Origin: Warburgia ugandensis
Taxonomy: Eukaryota; Streptophyta; Magnoliopsida; Canellales; Canellaceae
Assembly (NCBI GenBank): GCA_035236585.1
Contig: CP141139.1
Span: forward strand, 35,845,217-35,909,216
Length of the DNA stretch: 64,000 nucleotides
Direction: 5' to 3'
Shown here: piece by piece, positions 9,869-64,000 of the stretch
How positions within the stretch are numbered: the first letter of the stretch is position 1
How the letters are laid out: each line of letters begins with the position of its first letter
The notes under the pieces: generated by a model
What the model was told of the DNA's origin: nothing
The model's database searches: none
What the model saw: only the letters and a program-made list of their open reading frames with translations
Translations under genes and position numbers: made by a program

Positions 9869-12754
9869 TGTAATATCCTTAATTTTTAGGATAAAATAGG
9901 AAATTTGTAAATAAATAAAAATAAAAATTTATGGGTGGAAATTTTTCTTAAAAACATAAGAATTAAAAAGTGCTCGTCGATACAAGTCCAACGCCACCAA
10001 GAACCCGAAAAACAGAGCTCAAACGAGGGAGTTATGAGCCATCAAAGTTGTAAGGGCATTTTGGTCTTTTGACAGAGACGTGTTACACAGGGGTCTAAAT
10101 TGATAACGGCACCCCTGTCTTCCACACGTCTCTACCAGTCCAGCGAAATTGCCAGAGAGACGTGGAAAGAGACGTGTGGGGAAGAGTTTGTCTTCCCCTA
10201 GGACTCTAAACCCTATATCTATGCTTCCCTAGGAGCCAAAACGCTCCACTTTGAGCGTTTCTCCGAGTTTTCACTCAGAACCCTAGCCCTGCAAAGCTTT
10301 GATTTTTTTGGTGAGTGGAACCCCGGCAAGACGAGCAACCCCGGCCAAGCGCAAGGTAAGCCTCAATACTCCGTTTTTCTGTATTTATTAAATAGAAAAA
10401 TAATTAGGAAAGCATTTTAAAAATTAGGAAAAAAATCAGATTTTTTGGGAACTTTGTGCACGCTATTGTTGGAGCGTGATTTCTCATATCAAACCTCGTC
10501 CATTTGGAAATCGCACCATCCAACTAGTGCATAAGAGACCCAAGAGCAAACCCTTTAAATTTGGGAGTGGTCCAACAGTGGATTTCTCCAGAAAACCCAA
10601 AAATCAGTACCTAGGGATGTTTTTAGGAACTTGGGAAAAACCGTTTAAAAAACATAGTTTTTGGAGAAATCAATGCAAAAGGATGATAGAAATGGAAACT
10701 AGACAAAATTTGGAACAAAATGGCTCAAAAACCAAGTGATTTGGACACTTGTAGGGTCACCGGAGATGACCGGAAGCCGGTCATTTTCACAGGCACCGGT
10801 TTCCGCGTCGCTGGTGTAAACCGAGCTGCCCGTGTAACCCATTGTAAACTGGGTGCCAGTGTAACCTGGTGTAAACTGGGGCCGCCAGTGTAACCCAGTG
10901 TACACTGGGCGCTAGTGTAAACCGGTGTAAAGCAGGGCCGCTGGTGTAAACCAGTGCACTCGTTAAACACCCTATAAATTAATAAATATTAATTTATAAA
11001 GTATTTTCACTTAAAATTGATTTTTGGGAGCTAGAGGAGTCCAAATCACGATCCGAAAGATGCGTTGTAACCGTATTGACGACGCGGACTTAGTTTTAAC
11101 TTAAAAACTTATAAATGACCACTTCTTATTTAGAAAAATTTTAAAATAGTGATGTGACATGTACAGGTGCACTTGAATATACTAGTTAAAGGGAGTTATT
11201 AGCAAGCTAGTGGTCTCACACTGAGGTAGGTGATGACAACTAATGTTTTGCCTTGATTTTTAAACCATGTTTAAACATAGCATCATATGTGATCCTGTTT
11301 TAAATTACAATTATTATTTACCGTTGATTTCATGCGACATTGAGTACATGATGGTTATTCCAAATTGAAATCTTTTACTGGATAAACTTATTTCAAATGC
11401 TTTTACAAGCATGATGTTAATTAGTTATGCTTAATTAGAGACTTATTTCTTATTATATATATAGAAAATGCATGGATTTACATGGAAATGAGAATAGAGG
11501 CTTATTAGCTGGTCCTTTTATAGGCTAACCCCAAGATGAGGAACATGTCTTGGGGATTGCAAGCTATAAGTGCTCTTGAGTTTTAGCATATACATATGAT
11601 TTTCGTGTTTTATATTTGATGACGGGTGCTCTCGCCCCGTGGGCGTCATGTTAGGAGGGATAGGGCCGGCCACCCACCTTCCGAGATTATGATGTGATGA
11701 TTTTGTGATATGATAGACACCTGCCCATAGATGGCATTCGGTAGGGGTTTGGTAACATGGATAGTCCACACTACTGGTCTGAGCCTTTCCATGGGGACAG
11801 ACACTAAGTCTCCCGTTATGGTGTTAATGGAGAGCAGCGGTGGTTTATACCCATGAAGGGTTGCCACTGCAGCATGATGGCCCATATTCTTATTATGTGT
11901 GCATGTATGATGAGCATGGTTATGGATGGTATGCCTGGGTGTGACGACACTCAGAGGTTGACTACGAGTACTCCTGATCAGGGATGTTAGTGCGATGTGG
12001 TGGGACCCATTACCTTAGGGTGCCCTTATTCTTGTTGTATGCTCAATTATATTGATTCATATCATGTTTTAACTCCGTGAATTGCATGTTTTAGCATATG
12101 GAATAAATTGGCATTTATTTGAACATGGCATTATGATATCACTATTTTCATAAATGTTAGACTTTTCATCAGCGTTGTTCATTATTTCTTTCATTTATTA
12201 CATTAATTGTCTATGTACCTACACAAGCGATAGCTTGCTGAGGCATTGCTTTGTTTTGCAATGCCTTAGATCTCGAGCGCGACACCAGGAAAGGAAAAGC
12301 TATTGATAAACCTTGAGAGCTGCTGAAGACTAGTTTTTCCTATAGTTTTAGACAGTGATGTGAGTAATTAGAGAGGATTATCATTTGAATTTTATTATGG
12401 ACTGCATACTTTATATTTGGATGTGATTTAGATGTTTGGACATATGTTGGACATTTATATGGGATGTTATGATGGATAGACCCTGGGCCATATTATTATT
12501 GTGTTTTGGACATTTATTTGATTTAAAATAAAGGCGCTGATTTATTTGACGTTGATTTATACGCGGATTGTTTTATTTATGTTTAATTTACATATATGCC
12601 ATTTTGAGAAAGGAAAACTAACACCCGGAGTTTTTTAAGATAGGTTTTAGTAAAATGTTAAATAAAGCTTTTCTCATGGGATCCCAAATGCTCTTAATTA
12701 AAATGTCATTATTATAAATAAATAAAAAATGTCTTAAAAATCTGGGGTGTTACA
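9869..12754 (+). mobile_element. Solo LTR, family A copy 1
   Basis: A 2,886-bp block beginning TGTAATATCC and ending GGGGTGTTACA, so it has TG...CA ends with short inverted termini. The 5-bp direct repeats CCAAC at 9864-9868 and 12755-12759 are perfect. It is collinear with 16703-19524 and more distantly with 44622-47559. Landmarks in order are a TATA-like ctatatct near 10213, a donor-like AAG|GTAAGC at 10355/10356, a variable GC-rich cassette at 10750-10975, and a hairpin at 12241-12266. There is no internal region, so this is the product of LTR-LTR recombination. It is a non-coding fossil. Confidence 0.92.
10814..10968. repeat. Short tandem array of palindromic 27-29 bp units
   Basis: GTGTAA-headed units start at 10814, 10832, 10859, 10888, 10915 and 10944. 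Most contain an imperfect palindrome of the form CCCAGTGTACACTGGG (clearest at 10892-10907). The array fills the GC-rich cassette of the first family A LTR; the sister LTR at 16703-19524 has only a trace of it (about 17697-17735). Confidence 0.85.
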
Positions 12755-16702: not shown

Positions 16703-19524
16703 TGTAATATCCTTAATTTTTAAGATAAAATAGGAAATTATTAAATAAATTAAAATAAAAATTTATGGATGAAATTTTTTCCTGAAAACATAATAATTAG
16801 AAAGTGCTCGTCGATACGAATCCAACGCCACCAAGAACGCAAAAAACGGAGCTCAAACGAGGGAGTTATGAGCCGTCAAAGTTGTAAGGGCAAATTGGTC
16901 TTTTGACAGAAACGTGTTACACAGGGATCCAAATTGATAACGGCACCCCTGTCTACACACGTCTCTACCAGTCCGGCGAAATCGCCGGAGAGACGTGGGA
17001 AGAGACGTGTGGGGAAGAGTTTCTCTTCCCCAAGACTCTAAAACCCTATATCTATGCTCCTCTAGGAGCCAAAACGCTTCACTTTAAGCGTTTTCCCTGA
17101 ATGCTACGCAAAACCCTAGCCCTGCAAAACTTGAATTTTCCGGTGAGTGGAGCCCCGGCAACACGAGCAACCCCGACCAGGCACAAGGTAAGCCTCAAAT
17201 CCGTGTTTTTTCTGTATTTATTAATTAGAAAATTAATTAGGAAAGTATTTAAAAATTAGGAAAAAAATCGGATTTTTGGGGGCTTTGTGCACGCTACTGT
17301 TGGAGCGTGATTTCACGGATCAAACCTTGTCCGTTTAAAAATCGCACCGTCCAACTAGTGAACACGAGACCCAAGAGCATACCCTTTAAATTTGGGAGTG
17401 ATCCAACGGTGGAATTCTCCAGAAATCACGCAAAACGGAGCTCTGTAGCTCTGCCGGAGGCGACCGGAATCCGATCATCTTCTCCGGCGTCGTCAACGGC
17501 GTCGGTGCCCTGGCGCTGACGCCAGGACGCACTCGGAGACGCACCGAGGACGACGTCATACGACGTCGTCGTCGCACGCGTGCGGGACAGCCTCGGTTGG
17601 TTGTCGCGGTGGGACCAGGATGCGGCGCGTCTTGGCGACCGTGACGCACGGCGCGCGTTCCATTCGGCGTCTGCGTCTTCGTGCGCCAGTGTACGTCGGT
17701 GTAAACCGGCGGAAAAGGGTGCCGCCGGTTTAAACCACCTTATGGTGGTCCGACAGGCCCCATTTGAGGGTAGTTTTCACTAAAACTTGATTTTTGGGAG
17801 TTAGAGAGGTCCAAATCACCATCCGGAAGAGGCGTTGTGACCGTATTGACGACGCGGACCTAGTTTTAACTTAAAAACTTAGAAATGAAAACTTTTTCTT
17901 TAGAAAAATTTTAAAATAGTGATGTGACATGTACAGGTGCACGTGAATATACCAGTTAAAGGGAGTTATTAGCAAGCTAGTGGTCTCACACTGAGGTAGG
18001 TGACGACAACTAATATTTTGCCTTGATATTTGAACCATTTTTAAACATAGCATCATGTGTGATTGTGTTTTAAAATGCAATTTTTATTTACCGTGGATTT
18101 CATGCGACATTAAGGCATGTGATGGTTATTCCAAATTGAAATCTTTTACTGAATAAACTTATTTAAAATGCTTTTACAAGTATGATGTTAATTAGTTATG
18201 CTTAATTAGAGTTTTATTTCTTATTGTATATATAGAAAATACATAGATTGACATGGAAATGAGAATAGAGGCTTATTAGCTGGTCCTTTTATAGGCTAAC
18301 CCCAGGATGAGGGGCATGTCTTGGGGATTGCAAGCTATAAGTGCTCTTGAGTTTTAGCATATACATATGATTTTCGTGTTTTATATTTGATGACGGGTGC
18401 TCTCGCCCGGTGGGCGTCATGCTAGGAGGGATAGGGCCGGCCACCCACCTTTCGAGATTATGATGTGATGAGTTTGTGATATGATAGACACCTGCCCATA
18501 GATGGCATTCGGTAGGGGTTTGGTAACATGGATAGTCCACACTACCACTCCGAGCCTTTCCATGGGGACAGTACACTAAGTCTCCGTTATGGTGTCGACA
18601 GGAGCGGCGGTGGTTGATACCCATGGAGGGTTGCCACCGGCAAAGATGATGGCCCATATTCTTATTATGTGTGCATGTATGATGAGCACGGTTATGGATG
18701 ATATGCTCCGGGTGTGATGACACTCGTAGGTTGACTACGTGTACTCCCGATCGTGGGGATGTTAGTGCGATGTGGTGGGACCCATTACATTAGGGTGCCC
18801 TTATTCTGATGTATGCTCCATTTTATTGATTCATGTCATGTTTTAACTCCGTGAATTTCATGTTTTAGCATATGGAATAAATTGGCATTTATTGAACATG
18901 GCATTATGATATCACTATCTTCATAAATGTTAGATTTTTCATCAGTATTGTTCATTATTTCTTGCATTTATTACATTAATTGTCTATGTACCTACACAAG
19001 CGATAGCTTGCTGAGGCATTGCTTTGTTTTGCAATGCCTTAGATCTCGAGGGGATAACAGGAAAGGCAAGGCTGTTGAGAAGCCGTGAGAGCTGCTGAAG
19101 ACCATTTTTCTATAGTATTAGACAGTGATTTGAGTCATTAAACAGGATTATCATTTGGATTTTTATTATGGACTGCATATTTTATATTGGGATGTGATTT
19201 AGATCTTTGGACATATGTTGGACATTTATATGGGATGTTATGATGGATAGACCCTGGGCCATATTATTATTGTCTTTTGGACGTTTATTTGATTTAAAAT
19301 AAAGGCGCCTATTTATTTGACGTTGATTTATATGCGGATTATTTATTTATGTTTACATTACATGTACGTCATTTTGAGAAAGGAAAACTAACTCCCGGAG
19401 TTTTAAAGATAGGTTTAGTAAAATTTTGAATAAAATCTTTTCTTATGGGATCCCAAATGCTCTTAATTAAAATGCCATTAAAAAAATAAAATAAAAAAAT
19501 GTCTTGAAAATCCGGGGTGTTACA
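16703..19524 (+). mobile_element. Solo LTR, family A copy 2
   Basis: A 2,822-bp block, TGTAATATCC...GGGGTGTTACA, with perfect 5-bp duplications TCTAT at 16698-16702 and 19525-19529. It is collinear with 9869-12754 almost throughout; the main difference is the GC-rich cassette at about 17440-17760, which here is CpG-rich and GACGTC-like rather than the palindromic array. The donor-like AAG|GTAAGC is at 17187/17188 and the hairpin at 19014-19039. It inserted into a family B LTR fragment. Confidence 0.92.
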
Positions 19525-44621: not shown

Positions 44622-47559
44622 TGTAATAGCCCAAAATTTTTAAATTTGAAAAAATACGTAATTTTGAAAGAAAAAAAGGGTAAAAGGGTAAATACAAGTG
44701 GGGCCCACTTACAGGGTGCGGGACCCACGAATGAGGCTATAAAAGCCGGCCATGTCTTTTCATGTGGCCAAACCTCCCCTCTCAGTTCCTATGTCACCAA
44801 CGATAGATCACCGGCGATTGCTACTTTTCCGGCAAGAGCGCCTTTTTCCACTTGCTGGAGCGTGCGCAACATATTTCGGCTATAATCGACTAGCCTGATT
44901 TGAGGTAAGCCTCATCCCCTTACCCACGTTCTCCATTCCAATATGGAGCATAGTTTTTATGAGTTTTTAACGCAAAAAACGACGTGAAAAGTCATTTTTT
45001 CAGCAACTACGAATTTTACTATTTTTGCAAAACTAACCCAATGAAACGGTGTTAGATGGATGATCTGAACTATTCATCTTGTGCACGGTAATATGAAGAA
45101 CAAAACCATGAGTTTTCATGATGATTGAACAGTTAGGGATGACGAAAAACTCAGAAAATAGTAACGGGAATTTTTTTAGAAAAGTGATAAAAATCATGTA
45201 AAAACACTGGATAGCAATAAAAGTTGTTGAAAAGATGCTTAAAAACAAGATTTACGTGAAAAGTTGAGTGAAACGGTGCAAAAATTGTACCATTTGGACA
45301 CCTGAACGTCGCCAATGGCAACCGGAGTTCGGCTGTCGTTTCTGGTGATGGTGGCCAGCCAATCGTTGTCCCTGGGTGACGGCACCTGGCAGCGGCAGCT
45401 CAATGGGCATTGGCCGCACGCAGGGCACATCGGGTGGCGAATGCACGCACTGATGTGCACAAACACATACATGACACGTAACCCACATCGGCATGTGCCG
45501 ATACGCAATGCGGGTGCAACACATGGCGCAACCAATGCGCGCGACACTGGGCTACACGTAGGCAACGCACGTGCCCAGTGCATGCGAATGCACATGCACG
45601 TAAGCGAAAGACACAAGCATGCAATGCAATGCTGTGCAGTGTGGTGGCGCGGCTTTTTCTGGATTTTTTGGGTTTTCTGACCTGTTAATTTACAAAAACT
45701 TGATTTTTAGGAACTACAGAGGTCCAAATTGCAATTCGAAAGGGGCATTACGATCGTATCAATGGCATGGACCTAGAGTTGATGTGAAAATCTAGATATG
45801 AGCACTTTTTAAATAGTTCAACTACTAAATACTATTAGATTACCTACATCAGGCTAACCAATATATGATCAGGCCTTAGACCTTGATGGTATACATCTAA
45901 TATGAGATGTTCTACGGGATTAGGGGGATAGATCTTATTGAATTGCTAAGTGATAAATGAATTATGATGTAACAGGTACGTCAGATCACGCGACATGACA
46001 TTGCCCACGTGCCTAATTAGAACACTGCAATTATCGAGGTAGGTGATTTCATTCAAATTACTTCGTGATTTCAGTAATCATGACTTGTTCTCTAAAGTTT
46101 TTGAGGCATGTGTTTTATGTCTTCTCATGTTCACATAAATAGGTCCCTACTTTCTTGTTGTAGCATGACATTCCATTTTTGCGAATAACCATGTTCACAT
46201 ATGATGTACTATTTTTATCAGAGGCTTTGATCGTACTTATTGAGATTATTTATAGAGTCTTTACATGATTTACATCTTGTTGATGATTTATGACTAGTGC
46301 TTCTGCCTGGTGGGTACTATACTAGGAGGGTTGTAGAGTTGGACACTCGCCCTCAGACTTTGTGGTGATGATGATGATGATGATGATGATGATTAGACAC
46401 CACCGTTGAGTAGTACATGGCCAAGTACGTAGGTGGTGGTATCATGGGTAGTCCTGCCTACGGATTTGTTCTTCCCATGGGGATGGAGAAAATATCCCAT
46501 TTGAGTGTCGACAGGAGCGGCAGTGGTTCAAATCTTGATGGGGTTGCCACTACAACATAGTAGCCCATACAATTATTTTGCATGCTCATATGGATTTATA
46601 TGTTAGGGTCAACCGGGGCAAGCCGGGCTTAGGCCATGAGGGATTCTGGGGGCTGATGCGGGTTGCACGGGAGGGACCCAGAGTTGGTATGATTACGCAT
46701 TATCAGTGATTTAATGTCTTGGGACACTTTTGGTATTGTTTTGATACAATGTCTTATTTATCATGATTTGTATGCATATTATTCTGTGAACATAGACTTG
46801 TATTATTTTGATAGACGCACATCTGTATTTTTATCATGCCTTGCATGCCATCCTGATTTGAATTAATACCTATTTTGTGAAGGTTTATAATTATGAGCAT
46901 TTGATTATTTGACGTGTCTTATATATGTTTATTTCATGAGAATCACCATGTGAATTTTATTAAGCTTTAATTGAGAGTAATCACCTACACAAGCATAGCT
47001 TGTTGAGGCATTGCTTTGTTTTGCAATGCCTCATATTTGGAGCATGATAGCTGGAAAGAGAAGCGAGTGGAGTAGCATTGATTTGGCTGAGGACCTGAGG
47101 ACTATCCCCCTTTCGTATTTGGAGACAGATTAGTGTATATATCATAGACTTGTATTAAACCTTTGGAATTTTACTTGGATATATATATATATATATTTGG
47201 ATAGATTGGACCAATACTATGGTGTAATGAATGTTTAATTATAGATGTAGTTGTTGTAGTGATCATGGATGGAACCTGGTGGCTTTTCGGCTTGATTTAT
47301 TTTTGTTTTTACTCAGCTTATGTATTTATCGTGGTTTTAAATATAGCATGCTCAGGATATTCAAATTTGATTTTATTTATTATTGCAGTGTAGAATGTGG
47401 TTGGCCCTGAGGTTTTCACTTCCTATTAAATCTTTTAAAACTGTGCAAAAATTTATAGATTTTGAGTTTTCACTTTTAGGGATCCCATCTATTTTTAAAA
47501 AATTTATTATTATTATTATTATTTTGAGAAAAAGGTTTATAAAAACCCGGGGTGTCACA
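44622..47559 (+). mobile_element. Solo LTR, family A copy 3 (nested)
   Basis: A 2,938-bp block, TGTAATAGCCC...GGGGTGTCACA, with perfect 5-bp duplications CTTGG at 44617-44621 and 47560-47564. Landmarks are a strong TATAAAAG at 44738-44745, donor-like GAG|GTAAGC at 44904/44905, a GC-rich cassette 45300-45670, a (GAT)n run near 46369-46393 and a hairpin at 47006-47031. It is a diverged cousin of the LTRs at 9869 and 16703. It sits in the outer LTR 41563-49844. Confidence 0.92.
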
Positions 47560-55030: not shown

Positions 55031-56132
55031 GGTCTACCATGGAAGCTATTTTCTTACTAAGACAATTGGCAGAGAAATATAGGGAGAGGAGGAAAAACTT
55101 TACATGGTCTTTATTGACTTAGAGAAAGCTTGTGATAGAGTCCTTAAGGAGTTAATATTGAGAGTGTTGGGCGAGAAAGAGGTTTTACGGGGGTACATAG
55201 ACATAATTAAATATATGTATGAGGGAACGGTAATAAATGTTAAGATCCCTAGTGGCGAGACTGATGATTTTTCTGTCACATTGGTTATGGATGAGTTAAC
55301 AGAATATTTACATGAGAATTCCCTGGTGCATGCTATTTGCAGATGATATAGTCTTACTTGATAAGACAATGGAGGGTGTAAACATAAAGCTAAAGTTATA
55401 GAGAGAAGCATTAGAATCTAAAGGATTTAAAATTAGCCTATCTAAGACAGAATATATGGAATGCAATTTTAGCAAGGAGAGGAGTAGGAGTGGAACACCA
55501 GTTAAGATTGATAACCAAGAACTCCTTGTAAAAGACCACCTTCAGTACTTAGGATCAATGATTCATGAGTGGAGAGATTGAGAGATTGAGAGGGAGGTTA
55601 CCCAGCGAATCTAAGCAGGTTGGAACAATGGAGATGTACATCTGGAGTTTTGTATGATCGGCGGGTGCCACGCAAACTAAAAGAAAATTTCTATAGGATG
55701 GCGATAAAGCCAGCCATGCTCTATGGATTATAGTGTTGTGCAATTAAGAAACATCATGCTCATAGGATGAGAGTCTCAGAAATGAGGATGTTGAGATGGA
55801 TGAGTGGTAAGACAAGACAGGATAGAATAGAATAGAATTAGAAATGAAAATATTAGAAGAAATTTAGGGGTAGCACCAATAGGTAACAAGATGAGGAAGA
55901 TTAGACTTAGATGGTTTGGACATGCTCAAAGGAGACCAACAACAGCACTGGTTAGGAGTGACGCAATACAAGTAAAAGGTTCTAAAAAGACAAAGGGAAT
56001 GCCCAAAAGAATGTAGATAGAAGTGGTGAGGAAAGATTTAAAAACTTTGGGACTAAATGAAGCAATGGTACTTAATAGAGAGGACTGGAGGAATAAGATT
56101 CATGTGGCCGACCCCTAATTGGGATAAGGTCT

Positions 56133-56178
<46 letters not shown>

Positions 56179-56183: not shown

Positions 56184-58291
56184 TTCTAATGTGTCATATA
56201 GGATTTTTATACGAGGTTTTTAATAATCTAATATGATACTAAGTATGACCTGTATCCATAAACTAACTCAATCTTTCACCCATTCTCATTTTGAAGCCTT
56301 TTTGTTGTTTCTTCCAGTTCCTTGTCTGCAAGTTCTTGGTTATCTGCTCTATTTGATATTTCTCCTTCAATGCATTCTATTAAAAAAGATGGATCATAGT
56401 GCTTGAGCAGATTTAGTGAATAGCATGTTGAGCTATTAAAACTTGTCCAGTGATCTTTATTTGCCGCATGTCTGCCCAGTTTAATCCCAAAGCTTATATT
56501 CTAGAATCTGGTCAGTCACAATTAAGCTGGAAGAGATTGGCGGAAGGAGAAGGTGAAAACTATATTGCATTCACAGGGCCCGTACCAGACTTGAATGCAT
56601 GGTCAGCCGCTGTCCCTGGCCAATTAAGCTCAAATGTTGGGCAATGGAGACCTTATGAACTCGCACGAGAGATTGTTGCTTCTGATTAGATAGTGTCTAA
56701 TCAAGCTTTCTACTCTAGGTAATTATATACTCCTTAAAAGTGGGATTTCAGTGACAAATTTTTAGCAAAGTCATTTTCACAGACAATTCTAAATCTTCAG
56801 GGATGAAACTTGTGATGTCCATGGATGCGAAATAGCCCCACTGAATGGAGGCATGTGGCCACAGAATTTAATTGAGGCAAGTTTACCCAACTCCTTTTGA
56901 TTCTTGTTGATTTTCCTTAGTTATCTTCCTAACTGAACTTTGTCATTTTAGAAAGTTGTCAGTAGGTGTGCTAGCTCCACCATCTTGCAAGTGCAAAGCT
57001 AGCAAGTAGGCAGGTGTCAAGAAGGTTGATCATTGTCCATTAGGGCATACCATTGAAGAAGCTTTCATTGTTCATCTTTTGTAATTTCGGGAGTGTTAGT
57101 TCTGCAGTGATCCCCAGAGGGCCCTCTCAAATGTAAACTTAATTAGTGTCTTGGATGAAAAGTTCATTTTTTTTTTTTTTATCATAACCGTTGGTGGCAC
57201 GAGCCCCGCAATTTGTGTTTAAAAGGAACTTCTACCCAAGGAACCTTGTTCCTAATTTTACAATTCTTTTTTACATCCCCATTTTAGGCCCAACTAATGG
57301 ACAGTCCAGTGAGTCGTCACAGTTCACTTCTCTTCTGCGACAGCTTTGCATCTTCATCGCTTCTTTTTGGCAACTAGCTTATCCAGTGGGTGGCTATGGT
57401 AAGAAGCTGGTTGTACTTGTGATGGTTCTCCAAGATCTAATATTACCATTTAGGTCTACGTTGCCACAATATTGTTCTATGAAATTTTTTTGTGATATCT
57501 AAGATTTGATATTTGATATTTTTTTAGTAAAAAACAATGCATCAACCAATTAGAATGCAATAATGATGATCCTTCACTTGCTAGAAAGAAGCCTTTACTT
57601 GCCACATTGATATAAATCTTTTGATCTAAAATAAGCCTGTCATCTGAAATGATCACAACCATTGATCTATTAAGCACACACTTCTTCCATAAAAATCAGT
57701 GGAACCAAAGCCATGTGTGGAGGCCTCCTGATCGCTCATAGGATCAACCTATTCAGAGTTTTATGAGGTTTTATATACTGAAGTATTTATAGGATCCATA
57801 CTTTTGGTAATCCCAACCGTTCATCACACACCACAGTTGCTTAGTGATTAGAAGATAAAAGGTTCGATCATCCAAATCTAGTCCCCTCATATACTTTTAG
57901 CGGCCAAAGTTGAACTTGAACCTTTTACCATATAAAATGACCATTGATCAAAGAGTTTGTAGATATGATCCTCCACTTAATTTTCTTTGTTTATTGATCT
58001 CCCCACCTTCACTACTATTTTATGTGAATTTTGAAGTCAGAGATTAGAGTTAGAAGACAAAATCAAGGGGCTAGATCATAGTTAGACCAGTAGATGGAGA
58101 TCATGAGGAGGATGGAGATGGGTTACGTGCATGCATTGACTAGAGCTTGTAGGGATGCATGCACATTGAATGAATGTCATGGTTTGAAAGATACCTACTT
58201 CTTCTCTCTAAAAAACATGGTTTGAAGTTGTATTTTTCTCTTTCTAAAAACAATTAAAATGTATACTATAAAGAGTGGTTGGCATATTTCT
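56184..58291. other. Spacer with gene fragment; otherwise unassigned
   Basis: Holds the two-exon gene fragment at 56480-56880 and, just after, 3' UTR-like sequence. A 103-codon frame at 57191-57502 (containing LRQLCIFIASFWQL) has no similarity I recognise and may be chance or a further exon. The rest is AT-rich. Confidence 0.4.
56480..56880 (+). pseudogene. Two-exon fragment of an unrecognised host gene
   Basis: A likely exon runs 56480-56718: acceptor TCTGCCCAG before TTTAATCCCAAAG and donor AG|GTAATT at 56718/56719. It encodes KAYILESGQSQLSWKRLAEG, then TGPVPDLNAWSAAVPGQL and WRPYELAREIVASD, with one in-frame TAG at 56687-56689 before the donor. A second exon, 56801-56880, follows acceptor TCTTCAG in matching phase and encodes RDETCDVHGCEIAPLNGG then MWPQNLIEA. 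Phase, splice sites and composition look like a real plant gene, but both ends and the rest of the gene are missing, and the in-frame stop would truncate any product. I do not recognise the family and assign no function. Confidence 0.5.
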
Positions 58292-59234
58292 TGTCACAAC
58301 CCCATATCCCCAGGGCCGCGATTAGGCTTGATCAAGCCTAACGATTGGGCGAGCTAGGCCTACGTGGCCTTGCTTCTTTTTTTTTCATAATTTATATCAC
58401 AGCAGAAGTGTTGAGAGAGCTAGGTGCTCTTGTCCTGTGCAAGTCACAGTTTACTAGTGAAATATTTTTCTCCTTTAACAATAGGTCCTACCGAAATTTC
58501 GGCGAAGTCTCCCTGTTTTTCGGACATTATGCATTTAACGCATGCTATGCGGTTCACCTGATAGACAATAGAGCAATCGTAATTTACTGAAGGGAGACTC
58601 AGTCTTCGTACTATCTATCATAGTGAGACATACATGATACATACGGAATCAGTGTCAAAATGAGACATAACTCGTTCTGACATTAGCACATATATACATG
58701 TATTTATATACAACTCAAAATTTAATAGCTTCAAGCAAGCTTTGTTCAACTCACTCAACGACCTTTCTCTTCTCTCGCCCGACTAGTACTGCCAAAATAA
58801 CAAGGTGAGCCGCGAAGCCCGGTAAGGGAAAAGAACTAAACCCATGCATATCCGGTCATTCTCATTGCCACGCTTAAAAAACACATTCACTATAACATGA
58901 GCATGCATTTTCCATTTTAACTAGTCATATATAACATAGTTAGCATGTGCTATCAAGTAAGGCTTATGCTTATTACAGCGAGTACAGTTTTTCCCCAAAT
59001 TCTAATATGACGCAACAGTCATCGCATGCAAACAAGCACACCCCATAAGGATTTCCTATTCGTGTCCAGCCACGGGACATTCAATAGATGAGTGACTAAG
59101 TCATGGACCTCATTCTAAAGTTGCATGCAAACCATAAGTGTTACATCAAACAAAGCTGCATACTCATTAATGATTTTCTCAGTAATATTAAACGTGCCTA
59201 GCATCACACCAGGATTCAATAGTCATCTCCCTCA

Positions 59235-59780
59235 AGGATTACCATCTTGGGCGGCCCACTATGTGTATCATCATCAAGGCAGCGAGACCCTCGATTTACC
59301 ATCTTGGGTAGCGCCAAAGTCGGGTTCCCTCGTGTTTACCATCTTGGGTGGCTCCACCTTAGTCGAAATCAACCAGGCAGCCCTTTCCCTCAGGGTTTAC
59401 CATCTTGGGTAACTCAATATGCCAGCTCATCCCTCAGGGTTTACCATCTTGGGCGGCTCGACCGTGATCCTAAAAGACCGAGGCAGCCCTTTCCCTCGGG
59501 AATTACCATCTTGGGAGGCTCAATACACGGACCATCCCTCGGGGTTTACCATCTTGGGCGGCTCCACCATGATTCCAAAGAACCGAGGCAGCCCTTTCCC
59601 TCGGGGTTTACGTCTTGGGAGGTTTCTCCAATACCGAGACGGTCCAATCCTCGGGATTTACCGTCTTGGGCGGCTTCACCTTAGTTGCAAGCAACCAGGT
59701 AGCCCTTTCCCTCAGGAATTACCATCTTGGAAAGCGTCATCATAGCTTACCGGGTGGCCCTCAGGGCTTACTATCTTGGG
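59235..59780. repeat. Higher-order tandem array, about 105-bp composite unit
   Basis: TTTACCATCTTGGG-like motifs begin at 59241, 59298, 59338, 59399, 59443, 59505, 59548, 59610, 59660, 59721 and 59770. Spacings alternate near 61 and 44 bp, so the array is about five copies of a two-part 105-bp unit. The longer half carries GAGGCAGCCCTTTCCCTC. It lies on the 3' side of the captured gene fragments in element orientation. Confidence 0.88.
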
Positions 59781-59984
59781 CTTGACCATTTTATAACAGT
59801 TGCATCATCACAACGGTTAAGCATAGCAAATCATACTATAACATGACCTTTTTAACAAGAAATTACAATTTCTATCATCCACTAAACCAAGGTGGCAATA
59901 TATACATTTTACACATGCATAAAGTTAGTTTCAAGAGAACACAACAACAAGAATTTAAAGAATGCAAGGGTTCAGGGTCCTTAC

Positions 59985-60255
59985 CTGTGTTTGCAGTGCG
60001 ATTCACATTCCAATAACCAATGTTGCAATGTTTCCCGGTGGCTTCCATGTACCACCGCAAGCCCACAAAAGTGCTCCCCGAGATAGACACCGTGGCCGTA
60101 TGGGCATTCCCTTGATAAACTCATACACCTTTTCCACCATTCTAGCTTCCCCAACGAGTCCACAATACATGCATAATGCTCACACCCTTGCTCAATTCCA
60201 TACTTCCTTTTCATCTCTTCAAAAATTCTCAATCCCTCCTCTACTTTCCCAACTT
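59985..60255 (-). pseudogene. PPR-protein gene fragment (E-motif region), captured in LTR
   Basis: On the minus strand the sequence encodes RIFEEMKRKYGIEQGCEHYA then CIVDSLGK, and in a shifted frame VEKVYEFIKGMPIRP and GALLWACGGTW. This is the last repeat and E motif of plant PLS-class pentatricopeptide repeat proteins (consensus YGIxPxxEHYACIVDLLGRAG...EFIKxMPIxP...WGALLGAC), which bind organelle RNA and help its editing. Only about 85 codons are present, with a frame change inside. It starts about 45 bp after the ELF3 fragment and ends at the donor-like site of the host LTR, so both pieces could lie in one leader exon. No function is expected on its own. Confidence 0.82.
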
Positions 60256-60277
60256 ATTAGACGCTGATAGTACACAC

Positions 60278-61360
60278 ATTGACAATTGCTCTCCTTGCTT
60301 TCAAGAAGTGCTTCTGACCTATTACACCCACAATGTCATCAGGAGATATATCCAACCCTGATATGGAGTCTACCATTTAGGTTTCAGAGACATCATTATT
60401 TCTGTCAACATCGCCCAACTGCAATGACCTATGCATCCTTTGTCTTCGGTTTCCTTGTCATAGTTGTTAACCTGTTCGGACTTCTATGACTATTACCAAG
60501 TGATGCTCCGGTATATGATTCACTCCTCACCCTTGAAATACCATCCTTTTCAACAACCCGTTGCTGCCCAAACCTCTTGATAAACCGGCACCACATACAC
60601 CATCTTACGGAAGCAACCTAGTACCAGTTCTTGATGTGACGCATATTTCCATTGCAAGAATGTTCAACTTCTTGTAGTGAGGTATGTAGAACTGATCCTG
60701 ATTTAAATATGTCTTTGCAAATGTTGAAGCCTCTATAATCTTTTCTCCGGTGATGGGTGAGAGTCGGAGTGACGAGAATTTTCCGTGGAGTCTTTAATCG
60801 CCATTTGGAGGTTCCTTTGGTCTTTGTTCACTCTGGTTTCTTCCGTATTGCCTAGATTTTAGATGTGGTGTTGGTTCTTTTCGGAGGCTTATCACGGATA
60901 TTCTGCTGGATTGAAGAATTGCAAGTGGTTGCCACACTTTTAAACGGAGTGTTCACTGCGGCGGCTATTAAGTGACCTTGGTATGCGGTATAGAAGGGAG
61001 CACTGTCTTTCTCTATCTGGATTCTGATCCTTACAAGAATAAGGCACAGTCTGGATGATCAAAGGTAGGAACCATAAAATCCTCATCATCTCCACATTTC
61101 TTCGAGCTCGGATTCTTCCAATTTAGGAAAGTCGACTAGACGATCTTTGAAGGGACCAAATTACTATTGTGAGGAGGAAGAAGCATGGCCAGATTAGAAG
61201 AACTAAACCTCGAGAAGGAATACTAAGGCTGTTCATAGAGAGCCATCTTGTTCCTTGGTGGGGCCCTTGGCCCACCTTTCTCACATCACTCACATGAAGC
61301 CTTGGAAACAAAGGCCCCATTACCTTCTCCTCATCTCTTCCCCCTTTCATCATCAACAAA
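60278..61360 (-). pseudogene. ELF3: EARLY FLOWERING 3 (ELF3) gene fragment, captured in LTR
   Basis: Read on the minus strand from 61359: KGGRDEEKVMGPLFPRLHV, then GGPRAPPRNKMALYEQ (about 61290-61245), the conserved N-terminus of ELF3. Downstream follow CGDDEDFMVPTF (about 61090-61055), RVRSESYTGASLGNSHRSPN (about 60550-60490), GDVDRNNDVSETSMVDSI and [18 protein letters not shown], ending KARRAIVN at 60278. ELF3 is a scaffold of the evening complex (ELF3-ELF4-LUX) that represses clock and growth genes. About the first half of the protein is represented; the C-terminal half is missing. The frame is broken several times, so it is non-functional. No intron-like gap was noticed between N-terminal and middle parts, which would fit capture through a spliced RNA, but this needs comparison with the parent gene. 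Confidence 0.9.
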
Positions 61361-61849
61361 AACTACTAAGAATAACCGATCCTTTCAGAGACCCACTTCC
61401 CCAAACCGATCATCTGGCTCGAATCACCAGAAAATCCCATAATTCCAACCTCGTGCAGCAAATCCACATGCCAAAGAACCAAACCCACAAAAGATGATCA
61501 ATTTGAAATCGACCCACATGAAATTTTTTTGTCGGCAAGAGTAGGGGATTTTCTCACATCCAACACCTAGAACAAAACCCACTAGGCAGAAGCAACGTTT
61601 TTCGCCGGATTCTCCCTCTTCTTCTCGTGTTCCTTGTCATCACGGAGGCAGTGAGAGGGAGGTTTTACTCCCGAGCAGGGGACCAAGGAGGGAGGAAGAG
61701 GGCGAGAGATTTCTCCGACTATGTTCATGGCTGCTGGGTTTGGAACATGGGGAGAAGATGATCAGCCAGGCAAGAAACCTCCTGCTGATTCCTAAGGGTA
61801 GGGGAGAAGGAGAAACGAAGGGTGTGGGGAGGAAAGCCATCCCGGTGAT

Positions 61850-61958
<109 letters not shown>

Positions 61959-62500
61959 CTGAGATCCGTGGGGTCGAAGAGGCCGAGTCCGCGTGGCGAG
62001 TCTGACTCCCGCGTCGACTACGCTTCCACTGTGACATTGTGTAGAAGAGTTAGTCGGGGGTGCCATTATCAATTTGGACCCCTATTATTTGTAAATTTCT
62101 TTCGGATCTTTGAGTCCCGGGTCTCCGTTTTACGCGTTCTTAGTGTCATTGGAAAGCTCCTATCGAGCACAATCCAATAATCAAACTTTCATTGCTAGAT
62201 TTTAATATTTTTAGTTTACTTTATAATTACTTGAATTTCTATAAAATTTCCACTTTCAAATATGTTTGCTCACATTTTGCTATGAATCCAAATGAAATTT
62301 CAATTCATCTAATCCTTACGAGATATACAATTTAACAACCTCTAAGGATTCAAAATTTATCCAAAACTATCTTCAATTTACAACTAGATTCATGCGGGCC
62401 CACGTGCTCAATCCTGCCTTGGTTGTCTTGTTTCATAGAATTTGAGAAGATTAATGTGTTAATTCTTGTTTTAACCTGATTGTAGGACACAGGTGTGACA

Positions 62501-62910
62501 TTCTGATAACAAAAAACATATCAACTATGATAATGTTAAATAAACTTGATATCTCACATATGCCCAAGACAATGTAGTTACATAAACTTGATATCTCACA
62601 ATATATCATTGTTAAATAAGCTGCACATTTGAGATATGATATGATTTTTTTTAAATGCCTAAGAAACGCAGTTAAATAGACCCCCTTAAAACCCAACTAA
62701 CAAGTGGTTCAAAAGTGAGACCCACTTTATTGTCATGTTAGCCTAAATGAAAGGTGTCGATATCAAATCAAACATCGAATCGAAAAACTTTAACAAGAGA
62801 AGCTCCTTTATTATAAAAATAGTTTCCAATGTTTTTTTCCTACAAAATACTAATCCAAACCAATTTCTTCCATTCTCAATCATAAAATAGAGAAACGCAT
62901 CAATTTCTCA
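62501..62910. other. Short AT-rich spacer
   Basis: Between the LTR end and the second LINE fragment. A local repeat AAACTTGATATCTCAC occurs at 62533 and 62584. Nothing else recognised. Confidence 0.5.
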
Positions 62911-63571
62911 AGTTGTCAGTATATGTCGAGAGTGGAACACCAGTCAAGATTGATAACCAAGAAGTCCCTGTAAAAGACCACTTTCGGTACTTAGGATCAA
63001 TGATTCATGAGAGTAGACAGATTGAGAGGGAGGTTACCCAGCAAATCCAAGCGGGTTGGAACAAATGGAGATATGCATCTAGAGTTTTGTATGATCGACA
63101 AGTGCCACTCAAACTAAAAGAAAAATTCTATAGGATGCCTGTAAGGCTGGCCATGCTCTATGGATTAGAGTATTGGGCAGTTAAGCAACATCATACTCAT
63201 AAGATGAGCATTGCAGAAATGAGGATGTTGAGATGGATGAGTGGTAAGACAAGAAAGGATAGAATTAAAAATGAAAATATTAGAGAAAATTTAGGGGTAG
63301 CACCAATAGGTAATAAGATGAGGGAGATTAGACTTAGATGGTTTGGACATGTCCAAAGGAGATAAAAAAATGGCACCGATTAGAAGGAGTGAGGCAATGC
63401 AAGTAGAAGGTTCTAAAAGGGCAAGGGGAAGGACACAAAGAACATGGATAGAAGTAGTGAGAAAAGATTTTAAAACTTTGGGACTAAATTAAGTCATGGC
63501 ACTTAATAGAGAGGAATTGAGGAATAAGATTCATGTGGTAGACCCCTAATTGGGATAAGGTCTTGATAATG
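62911..63571 (+). mobile_element. RTE-type LINE, 3' end (copy 2)
   Basis: A 5'-truncated copy with a 150-codon open frame (62913-63365) covering the region C-terminal to the RT core: GTPVKIDNQEVPVKDHFRYL, GSMIHESRQIEREV, LKLKEKFYRMPVRLAMLYGL, MRMLRWMSGKTRKDR and LRWFGHVQRR. After a stop the sequence continues to CCCTAATTGGGATAAGGTCTTGA at 63543-63566, the same 3' end as copy 1, but with almost no TGA repeat. It lacks the FADD catalytic region altogether. It is less decayed than copy 1. Confidence 0.92.
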
Positions 63572-64000
63572 ATTCACTTTAGAAACATGGCAAGTGAATG
63601 GCTTGGACTTATCTTCCTTCTAAGATTATTTGTCATTAGGAGATTTTTGAAACTTGCGTACCTGGCATTATACCCTTTCTTTCCACAAAAACAGCCAAAG
63701 AAATTTGTTCTTTTACTTTTATTAGCTTGGTTTCTAGATAGATTCACATAGTTTCCATTCTTCTTCAAGGGGATTCCCTTTGGATCATAATTTTGACTCT
63801 TGAACTTCTTTTAAGGAAAATATCCATTTTTCTCTTCCATAACATGAGCCTTAGCAACTAGCTCTTTTAAAGTAAGCTTGCTTTGCATGTTTTCTTCTTC
63901 AATGCATAAACAATAGAGTAGTTTATTGTAATCCATTTTTTTCAGTTTTATGAAGGAGTCTCACACAAACATCTTTTCATATAGATGGAATTTTTGCAAT
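63571..64000 (-). mobile_element. Copia gag-side remnant with zinc-knuckle trace
   Basis: Minus-strand sequence with FFGCFCGKKGYNAR near 63690, a decayed CCHC zinc knuckle of Copia gag, and basic gag-like residues upstream (right). It is in the same orientation as 52046-55030 and represents the part that would lie just upstream of that fragment's protease side. It runs off the window. Broken. Confidence 0.65.

Follow-up and report, generated by a model that had tools for sequence, protein, structure and literature searches.

Introduction

By analogy with published accounts, the closest known case to the locus described here is the 5' transduction of hominid SVA elements. In SVA_F1 (MAST2) and pt_SVA_D6 (STK40), a host first exon was spliced to an acceptor of the element, replaced its 5' part and then multiplied with it, and exons of eight other genes were gained by further 5' transductions in many members of the STK40 group, according to the available text of the source (PMC6139936). 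As far as that account goes, SVA is like the family studied here, under the interpretation proposed below, in that it gains a host first exon via an internal acceptor, with replacement of the 5' part. SVA, however, is a non-LTR element of apes, whereas here the exons lie inside an LTR, transfer to the 3' LTR is needed, and the host is a plant.

A survey of maize, in the portion available, counts 425 elements derived from at least 189 captures, and states that fragments of two or more standard nuclear genes were not found together in any single LTR retrotransposon (PMC2774510). Titles cited by a review point to several cellular genes within a single plant LTR element (excerpts of PMC13317346). 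Bs1 and the maize elements, as partially described, resemble the family of Warburgia ugandensis in that spliced parts of host genes lie in an LTR element, but the Warburgia pieces sit in the LTR itself, at one reused site. We take the titles on multi-gene plant elements to be about Bs1. New sequence enters during reverse transcription in BARE-2 and Veju as well, but it comes from another element or is of unknown origin rather than from spliced host exons (excerpts of PMC13317346). The retroduplicated NLR genes of pepper are likewise intron-less host genes in mostly non-autonomous LTR elements, but they lie inside the elements, and no reused acceptor is described in the available part of the paper (PMC5664825). 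The same review, in its accessible part, states that no 5'-transductions have been reported for plants (PMC13317346). The partly accessible open-licence literature yielded no description of this LTR family or of exon trapping by plant LTRs.

Here we analyse a stretch of 64,000 nucleotides from W. ugandensis (the window; contig CP141139.1, C14:35845217-35909216 in our numbering), together with searches of its genome (1.12 Gb, 14 contigs).

A solo LTR in the window and its relatives

The minus strand of the window contains a solo LTR of 4209 bp (58292..62500) that begins with TGTCACACC and ends with GGTTGTGACA. It has the termini TGT...ACA and is bordered by a 4-bp target-site duplication, TTCT, read at the LTR edges (first copy 62501..62504, second copy 58288..58291), so that it combines the TG...CA ends and the duplication of a solo LTR. 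LTR positions (p) start at the 5' end, so that p = 62501 - window coordinate. A preliminary description of this DNA had assigned the ends at 58292 and 62500 to one element, and this assignment holds: both ends recur, with at most four bases off, in all eight further full-LTR ELF3-type loci fetched (L011-L018), and the primer-binding site and target duplications of other copies agree with it. Duplications of 5 bp were read by eye at nine insertions (L011/12, L013/14, L015-L019, L021 and L022), against 4 bp in the window copy.

Directly after the LTR end, L012 and L020 read ACT-TGGTATCAGAGC, presumably a primer-binding site of the tRNA-iMet type, and L013 reads ACT-TGGTATCGTAGC, which we regard as a variant of TGGTATCAGAGC. 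The purine tract GGAGGGAAGTGT precedes the 3' LTR in L011 and L014, and thus both a primer-binding site and a purine tract are present. Because the primer-binding site follows the LTR in L012 and L020 (its variant in L013), the LTR sense is the minus strand. A plus-strand reading had been prompted by the palindromic ends and by AACAAG/GTGAGCC near 58800 (a slash marks a splice-like boundary or join), which resembles the donor of the other LTR family in the window; it was rejected, since alignment to that family and the position of the primer-binding site both point to the minus strand. The internal part (~3.8 kb) consists of decayed remnants (protease and RNase H, with the Pfam names RVP_2 at 1.5e-14 and RT_RNaseH_2 at 5e-10), and the elements look non-autonomous and of the Ty3 type. 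Their LTR ends are similar to those that we presume for the Tekay/Del chromovirus lineage. Divergence between paired LTRs (K2P) is 0.057 for L013/L014 and 0.034 for L011/L012.

A first-look search using the initial 550 bp of the LTR gave 1147 candidate places, the best 40 of which were scored. All counts from genome searches given below are lower bounds, since at most the best 40-47 candidates were scored (out of 95 for the ELF3 block and 1147 for the start of the LTR). Copies were chosen for fetching by class rather than randomly, 12 loci containing LTR parts and then seven more.

The LTR's own 5' part (positions 1-891; 61610..62500, minus strand) is common to the hydrolase-type and UBP-type copies described below up to position ~903. 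A GA/CT microsatellite lies in the leader at 61852..61955, and tandem repeats with a period of ~105 occupy 59228..59781 on the minus strand. The leader ends at a donor-like ACACAG/GTAAGG (59984..59985, minus strand, the exon side ending at 59985), which the preliminary description had also recognized at the end of the captured fragment. Among the 13 LTRs examined, eight share an identical site (the window copy, L015-L017 and L019-L022); the site is altered in L011, L013, L014 and L018, and a pattern search in L012 gave no match. When a tree was made from the cargo-free LTR part of 12 of the 13 LTRs (L012 being dropped because the start pattern was missing), one of nine inner branches was well supported; it joins the LACS and UBP types, and the eight ELF3-type rows do not stand together.

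The window holds three more LTR units, all on the plus strand (9869-12754, 16703-19524 and 44622-47559), two of one family and one related. They have 5-bp target duplications (CCAAC, TCTAT and CTTGG, respectively), and each has an AG/GTAAGCC donor-like site 280-490 bp past its start. Positions 62242-62006 of the window show distant similarity to this other LTR family. Two related repeats, 85% alike, lie at 55488-56142 and 62930-63573; their reading frame resembles what we take to be the terminal part of a LINE reverse transcriptase of the RTE type. Pieces similar to these repeats also occur in L022, inside an LTR, and, judged by common hits, near the ELF3 and LACS genes (L009, L040 and L041). 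Elsewhere in the genome, six ELF3-carrying LTRs stand in a row at steps of ~8.0 kb (G000:C4:52884466-52927013), which suggests a chain of LTRs and internal parts grown by unequal recombination.

ELF3 and PPR sequences in the leader

The preliminary description read the first half of ELF3, ending at KARRAIVN, on the minus strand, followed after about 45 bp by a PPR E-motif fragment, and saw in them the capture of two genes in one orientation in the leader of an LTR. The ELF3 assignment was borne out, and the captured part proved larger, comprising exon 1 with its 5' UTR and exon 2. Exon 1 (5' UTR and coding start; LTR positions 892-1367; 61134..61609) matches L009 5343-4850 at 92.8%, and exon 2 (LTR positions 1368-2222; 60279..61133) matches L009 4151-3292 at 92.1%, both on the minus strand. 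An Arabidopsis ELF3 query gave three minus-strand matches, 60445-60278 (aa 284-339, E 2.9e-12), 61350-61210 (aa 1-47) and, in a shifted frame with stops, 61282-61058, so that the ELF3 N terminus and the KARRAIVN end of the first half are both present in the block. Intron 1 (L009 4152-4849) is missing between the two exons, in answer to the earlier suggestion that its absence be checked. The exon 1/2 join reads TCAG/GACTTTCC, as expected from splicing, in 9 of the 13 copies viewed; the pattern is absent from L013, L014 and L018, where it was searched for. The window copy lacks two bases (AG) at this join and its ELF3 frames are broken. The ELF3 part in the window is a fragment, and any regulatory effect of it is putative. 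A PDB search with the ELF3 N terminus gave no match.

The whole ELF3-PPR block occurs at 92-100% identity at no fewer than 15 genomic places (best 40 of 95 candidates scored), six of them in the C4 row mentioned above, and therefore it is no chance match. An ELF3 gene with matches to exons 1 to 4 is located on C7 (L009, L041), and a paralog on C8. K2P distances of nine cargo copies range between 0.024 and 0.085 for the C7 gene and between 0.138 and 0.203 for the C8 gene, with 0.139 between the two genes; therefore the source is the C7 gene. The parent gene in L009 (C7:68986000-68995000) reads VKGGRDEE against MKGGRDEE in the window capture, and its expected start codon looks changed in this assembly. 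The available parts of the ELF3 literature give exon or intron counts or numbers, and no intron positions transferable to this genome.

The PPR-derived leader sequence lies at 60022..60278 on the minus strand. The reading of the fragment as PPR, of the E type, agrees with a phmmer match of 60253-59981 to a synthetic PPR-DYW chain (1.6e-8), the Pfam PPR match to the window fragment being below the cut-off (18.2 bits vs 25). The spacer of ~45 bp did not survive comparison with other copies: the sequence just past the ELF3 end is already PPR-side in L021, L022 and L034, which lack ELF3. From these copies, the PPR part is the older capture, and ELF3 would have replaced sequence that formerly preceded it. 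Thus the two-gene capture stands with respect to its single orientation and its place in the LTR leader, but it would be a product of layers, other cargoes being found in the slot, and not of one double capture. Of the parents sought, ELF3 was found on C7 as stated, and a search of the genome for the PPR parent gene found none.

The PPR part also varies in length among copies. A stretch of 100 bp (L021 4959-5058) is gone from the window copy at 60022/60023, between short repeats (ACATTG), and a PPR stretch found in L022 is absent from L034, between two GTGTAC repeats; both losses are perhaps deletions by slippage during copying. L029 (C12:15007500-15009700) has an insertion of ~600 bp in its PPR part, between TTTTTTTAG and GCCTCTTCTGC, bordered by TTTTTTAG at both sides.

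Other gene pieces in the same slot

Copies that matched the PPR part alone revealed other contents in the same LTR slot: an alpha/beta-hydrolase exon (L019, L020), a piece of a long-chain acyl-CoA synthetase (LACS) made of three spliced exons (L021), a ubiquitin-protease (UBP) piece with a long PPR (L022, L034), a P450 (L024, L028), and a PPR N terminus directly after LTR position 789 (L025, L026, L027 and L029). Pfam matches were AMP-binding (2.7e-19), p450 (7.4e-9) and PPR_2 (2.3e-8), with UCH (3.3e-4) and Abhydrolase_1 (2.1e-3) below their curated cut-offs; the first 60 PPR residues and one LACS piece gave no Pfam match. The finer names LACS, UBP23-like and CYP71-like are our assumption. 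Scored places number at least 13 for the intact UBP type, at least 4 for LACS, at least 3 for the hydrolase and at least 6 for the complete P450. Besides ELF3 on C7, parents were identified for the hydrolase (C11, 99.3%), LACS (C1, three exons, 97-100%) and the P450 (C12, 95%). The UBP parent gene was searched for in the genome and not found. Two candidates for it were rejected, C7:78005225 being another element fragment with UBP and PPR, and C11:23963500 consisting of rearranged pieces. L035 (C7:46104000-46105500) has a different leader of ~895 bp, which stands in place of the whole interval between the UBP start and the donor; its end, ...CTAGCAG/GTAAGGACC, is at the LTR donor.

All six contents (ELF3, PPR, UBP, P450, hydrolase and LACS) lie in the LTR sense direction. 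Comparison of the copies indicates that the slot was used repeatedly and that each older capture can lose its 5' part to a later one. These features bear on capture at the DNA level, in which a Pack-MULE, a Helitron or a repair-filler insertion would have brought the ELF3 and PPR pieces. DNA-level gene captures are common in plants. For maize, counts are given in the available part of PMC2774510. However, such a route is at odds with the removed introns and the sense orientation of the contents, and the captured piece substitutes for LTR sequence rather than being inserted. No flanking TIR with a duplication stood out in 59700-62300, nor do the repeats listed for this interval (28 nt or shorter, imperfect) include a boundary pair of a separate insertion around the block; the presence of such boundaries is what the preliminary description had named as speaking against its reading. 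Membership of the Pack-MULEs, and within the scope of this repeat list also of the Helitrons, was rejected, because the listed repeats contain no such boundary pair and the joins are splice-like. A LINE processed pseudogene, with poly(A) and its own duplication, was rejected as well, because the ELF3 exon end runs straight into PPR-side sequence in 13 of 13 copies viewed. Capture at the DNA level is the account to which we give the least credence.

Joins between captured sequences and the LTR

Parents are identified for four captures, and in three of these (ELF3, hydrolase and LACS) the 3' join lies at the end of a parent exon that is followed by a GT donor. The parent ELF3 reads GTCAA/GTTAGT and the capture GTCAA/TGTGTGTAC; the hydrolase parent reads TTGGGTCAG/GTAATT and the capture TTGGGTCAG/TGTGTGTAC; and the LACS parent reads CTAAATGAG/GTTTTT and the capture CTAAATGAG/CATGTGTAC. 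The ELF3 join in the window (60278..60279, minus strand) is ...GTCAA/TGTGTGTACTATC, where the recipient-type copy L034 has GATTGCAG/TGTGTGTACTATC, and ...CAA/TGTGTGTACTATC is found in 13 of 13 copies viewed; its placement could shift by one base, since the frame indicates that exon 3 also starts with T. LACS introns 1 and 2 are removed, as is ELF3 intron 1.

On the LTR side, all three joins are at the base after one TTGATGATTGCAG in copies without those genes. Capture-free copies read GTTTGATGATTGCAG/ followed by TGTGTGTACTATC in L034, TGTGTGTACAAAAC in L022 and CATGTGTACAGAAC in L036, and the captures resume after the CAG. An acceptor AG is therefore present at the join without any capture, as GTTTGATGATTGCAG/ in L022, L034 and L036, although only 53% of the bases in -20..-4 are pyrimidines. 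L034 is the recipient-type copy for ELF3 and the hydrolase and L036 that for LACS, with L022 as a longer relative; L034, fetched for its unfamiliar slot content, matched the allele needed by the joins. Both marks of SVA-type capture, a parent exon end with a donor (three of four captures with a parent) and an acceptor AG in capture-free copies, are thus found here. A rough chance product for three exon-end joins at one site is 1e-8, with the exon numbers and lengths of the hydrolase and LACS partly assumed. An L034-like copy seems to be the origin of both the ELF3 and the hydrolase type, so that use of the site is not wholly independent of descent, and a single lineage may have made both catches at one site.

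The 5' joins lie at differing places in host 5' sequence, with short microhomology: GAGAGAGAG for LACS (9 nt), GCAA for the hydrolase (4 nt) and GGC for ELF3 (3 nt). Relative to the ATG, the captures start ~260 nt upstream in ELF3 and ~57 nt upstream in the hydrolase; in LACS the start lies in an exon before the one that gives the first coding match. For the P450, the 5' join is ~31 nt after a TATATAAA of the parent, a position that would be expected of an mRNA 5' end. Its 3' join is inside a parent exon, at a 9-nt GCAACAAGT shared with the UBP part; no splice site is involved, and this capture looks like simple template switching.

All captures might have arisen in such a way, by two template switches between the RNA of the element and a host mRNA that was spliced normally and co-packaged, with microhomology at both sides and without splicing to the LTR. 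This would account for the absent introns and for the microhomology at the 5' joins and at the 3' side of the P450, and the route is known for plant elements, as far as the accessible part of the review describes it (PMC13317346). However, three captures stop at a parent exon end and meet the base after one recipient CAG, and an ordinary mRNA offers no reason to stop there, the chance product given above having partly assumed inputs. We therefore consider this account unlikely. Free first-step splicing products, that is, 5' exons ending at the donor, could also have served as templates onto which reverse transcriptase jumped end to end. Such templates explain the exact exon ends, but give no reason why three captures should meet the LTR just after the same CAG, and their use seems very unlikely to us.

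A proposed model of exon trapping

We think it probable that the block derives from the spliced 5' part of a host mRNA and entered the LTR of a Ty3-type LTR retrotransposon by exon trapping. Exon trapping is the simplest account because it covers the sense orientation, the host 5' ends, the intron loss, the exon ends, the single LTR site and the overwriting; the P450 is a misfit, since its 3' join is a 9-nt microhomology. From the joins we infer a chimeric RNA, in which a host exon-end donor would have been spliced to the acceptor TTGATGATTGCAG/ inside an LTR of the family. That LTR could have stood inside a host intron or downstream of the gene, or splicing could have occurred in trans. Parts of the LTR family were searched for (E 1e-5, five LTR/internal subjects, LINE-like hits aside) in ELF3 intron 2 (L009, L041) and in the hydrolase intron read to the next coding match (L030, L039), and none was found; the scan of LACS intron 3 had no delimited end, the next exon not being identified. 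Given the 99% identity of the hydrolase capture to its parent, its source insertion may still be segregating.

The chimeric RNA would retain the primer-binding site and the remainder of the element, and reverse transcription would start there, pass through the LTR part after the acceptor and continue into the host exons toward the host 5' end. We further infer a strand transfer, in which the new strand would move to U3 of the 3' LTR via short microhomology. Both daughter LTRs would then consist of U3, host 5' UTR and exons, the remainder of the leader and the rest of the LTR. As the comparison of copies suggests, the daughters would multiply and later captures would overwrite the 5' part (PPR, UBP, P450, hydrolase, ELF3 and LACS), the window presenting a single ELF3-type solo LTR.

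In this family, serial exon capture seems to have left a natural record. We tentatively suggest, as an idea we hold at somewhat below even chances, that the LTR is a standing trap, in which one leader acceptor would catch the first exons of any gene read into it and the element cycle would write the catch, from near the host cap site, into both LTRs. The leader would thereby be swapped repeatedly while U3 and the rest are kept, perhaps outpacing silencing by small RNAs, and a catch could also disable the trap, as with ELF3, whose exon ends in CAA so that the AG at the join is lost.

Implications

This LTR family offers a likely case of exon-trapping 5' transduction, with parents, recipient-type alleles and daughters all present within one genome. 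In the setting of an LTR element, a capture must also pass strand transfer, and the family makes the acquisition of host exons by LTR elements testable base by base. Through it, parts of a clock gene, ELF3, are spread genome-wide in sense orientation inside LTR leaders.
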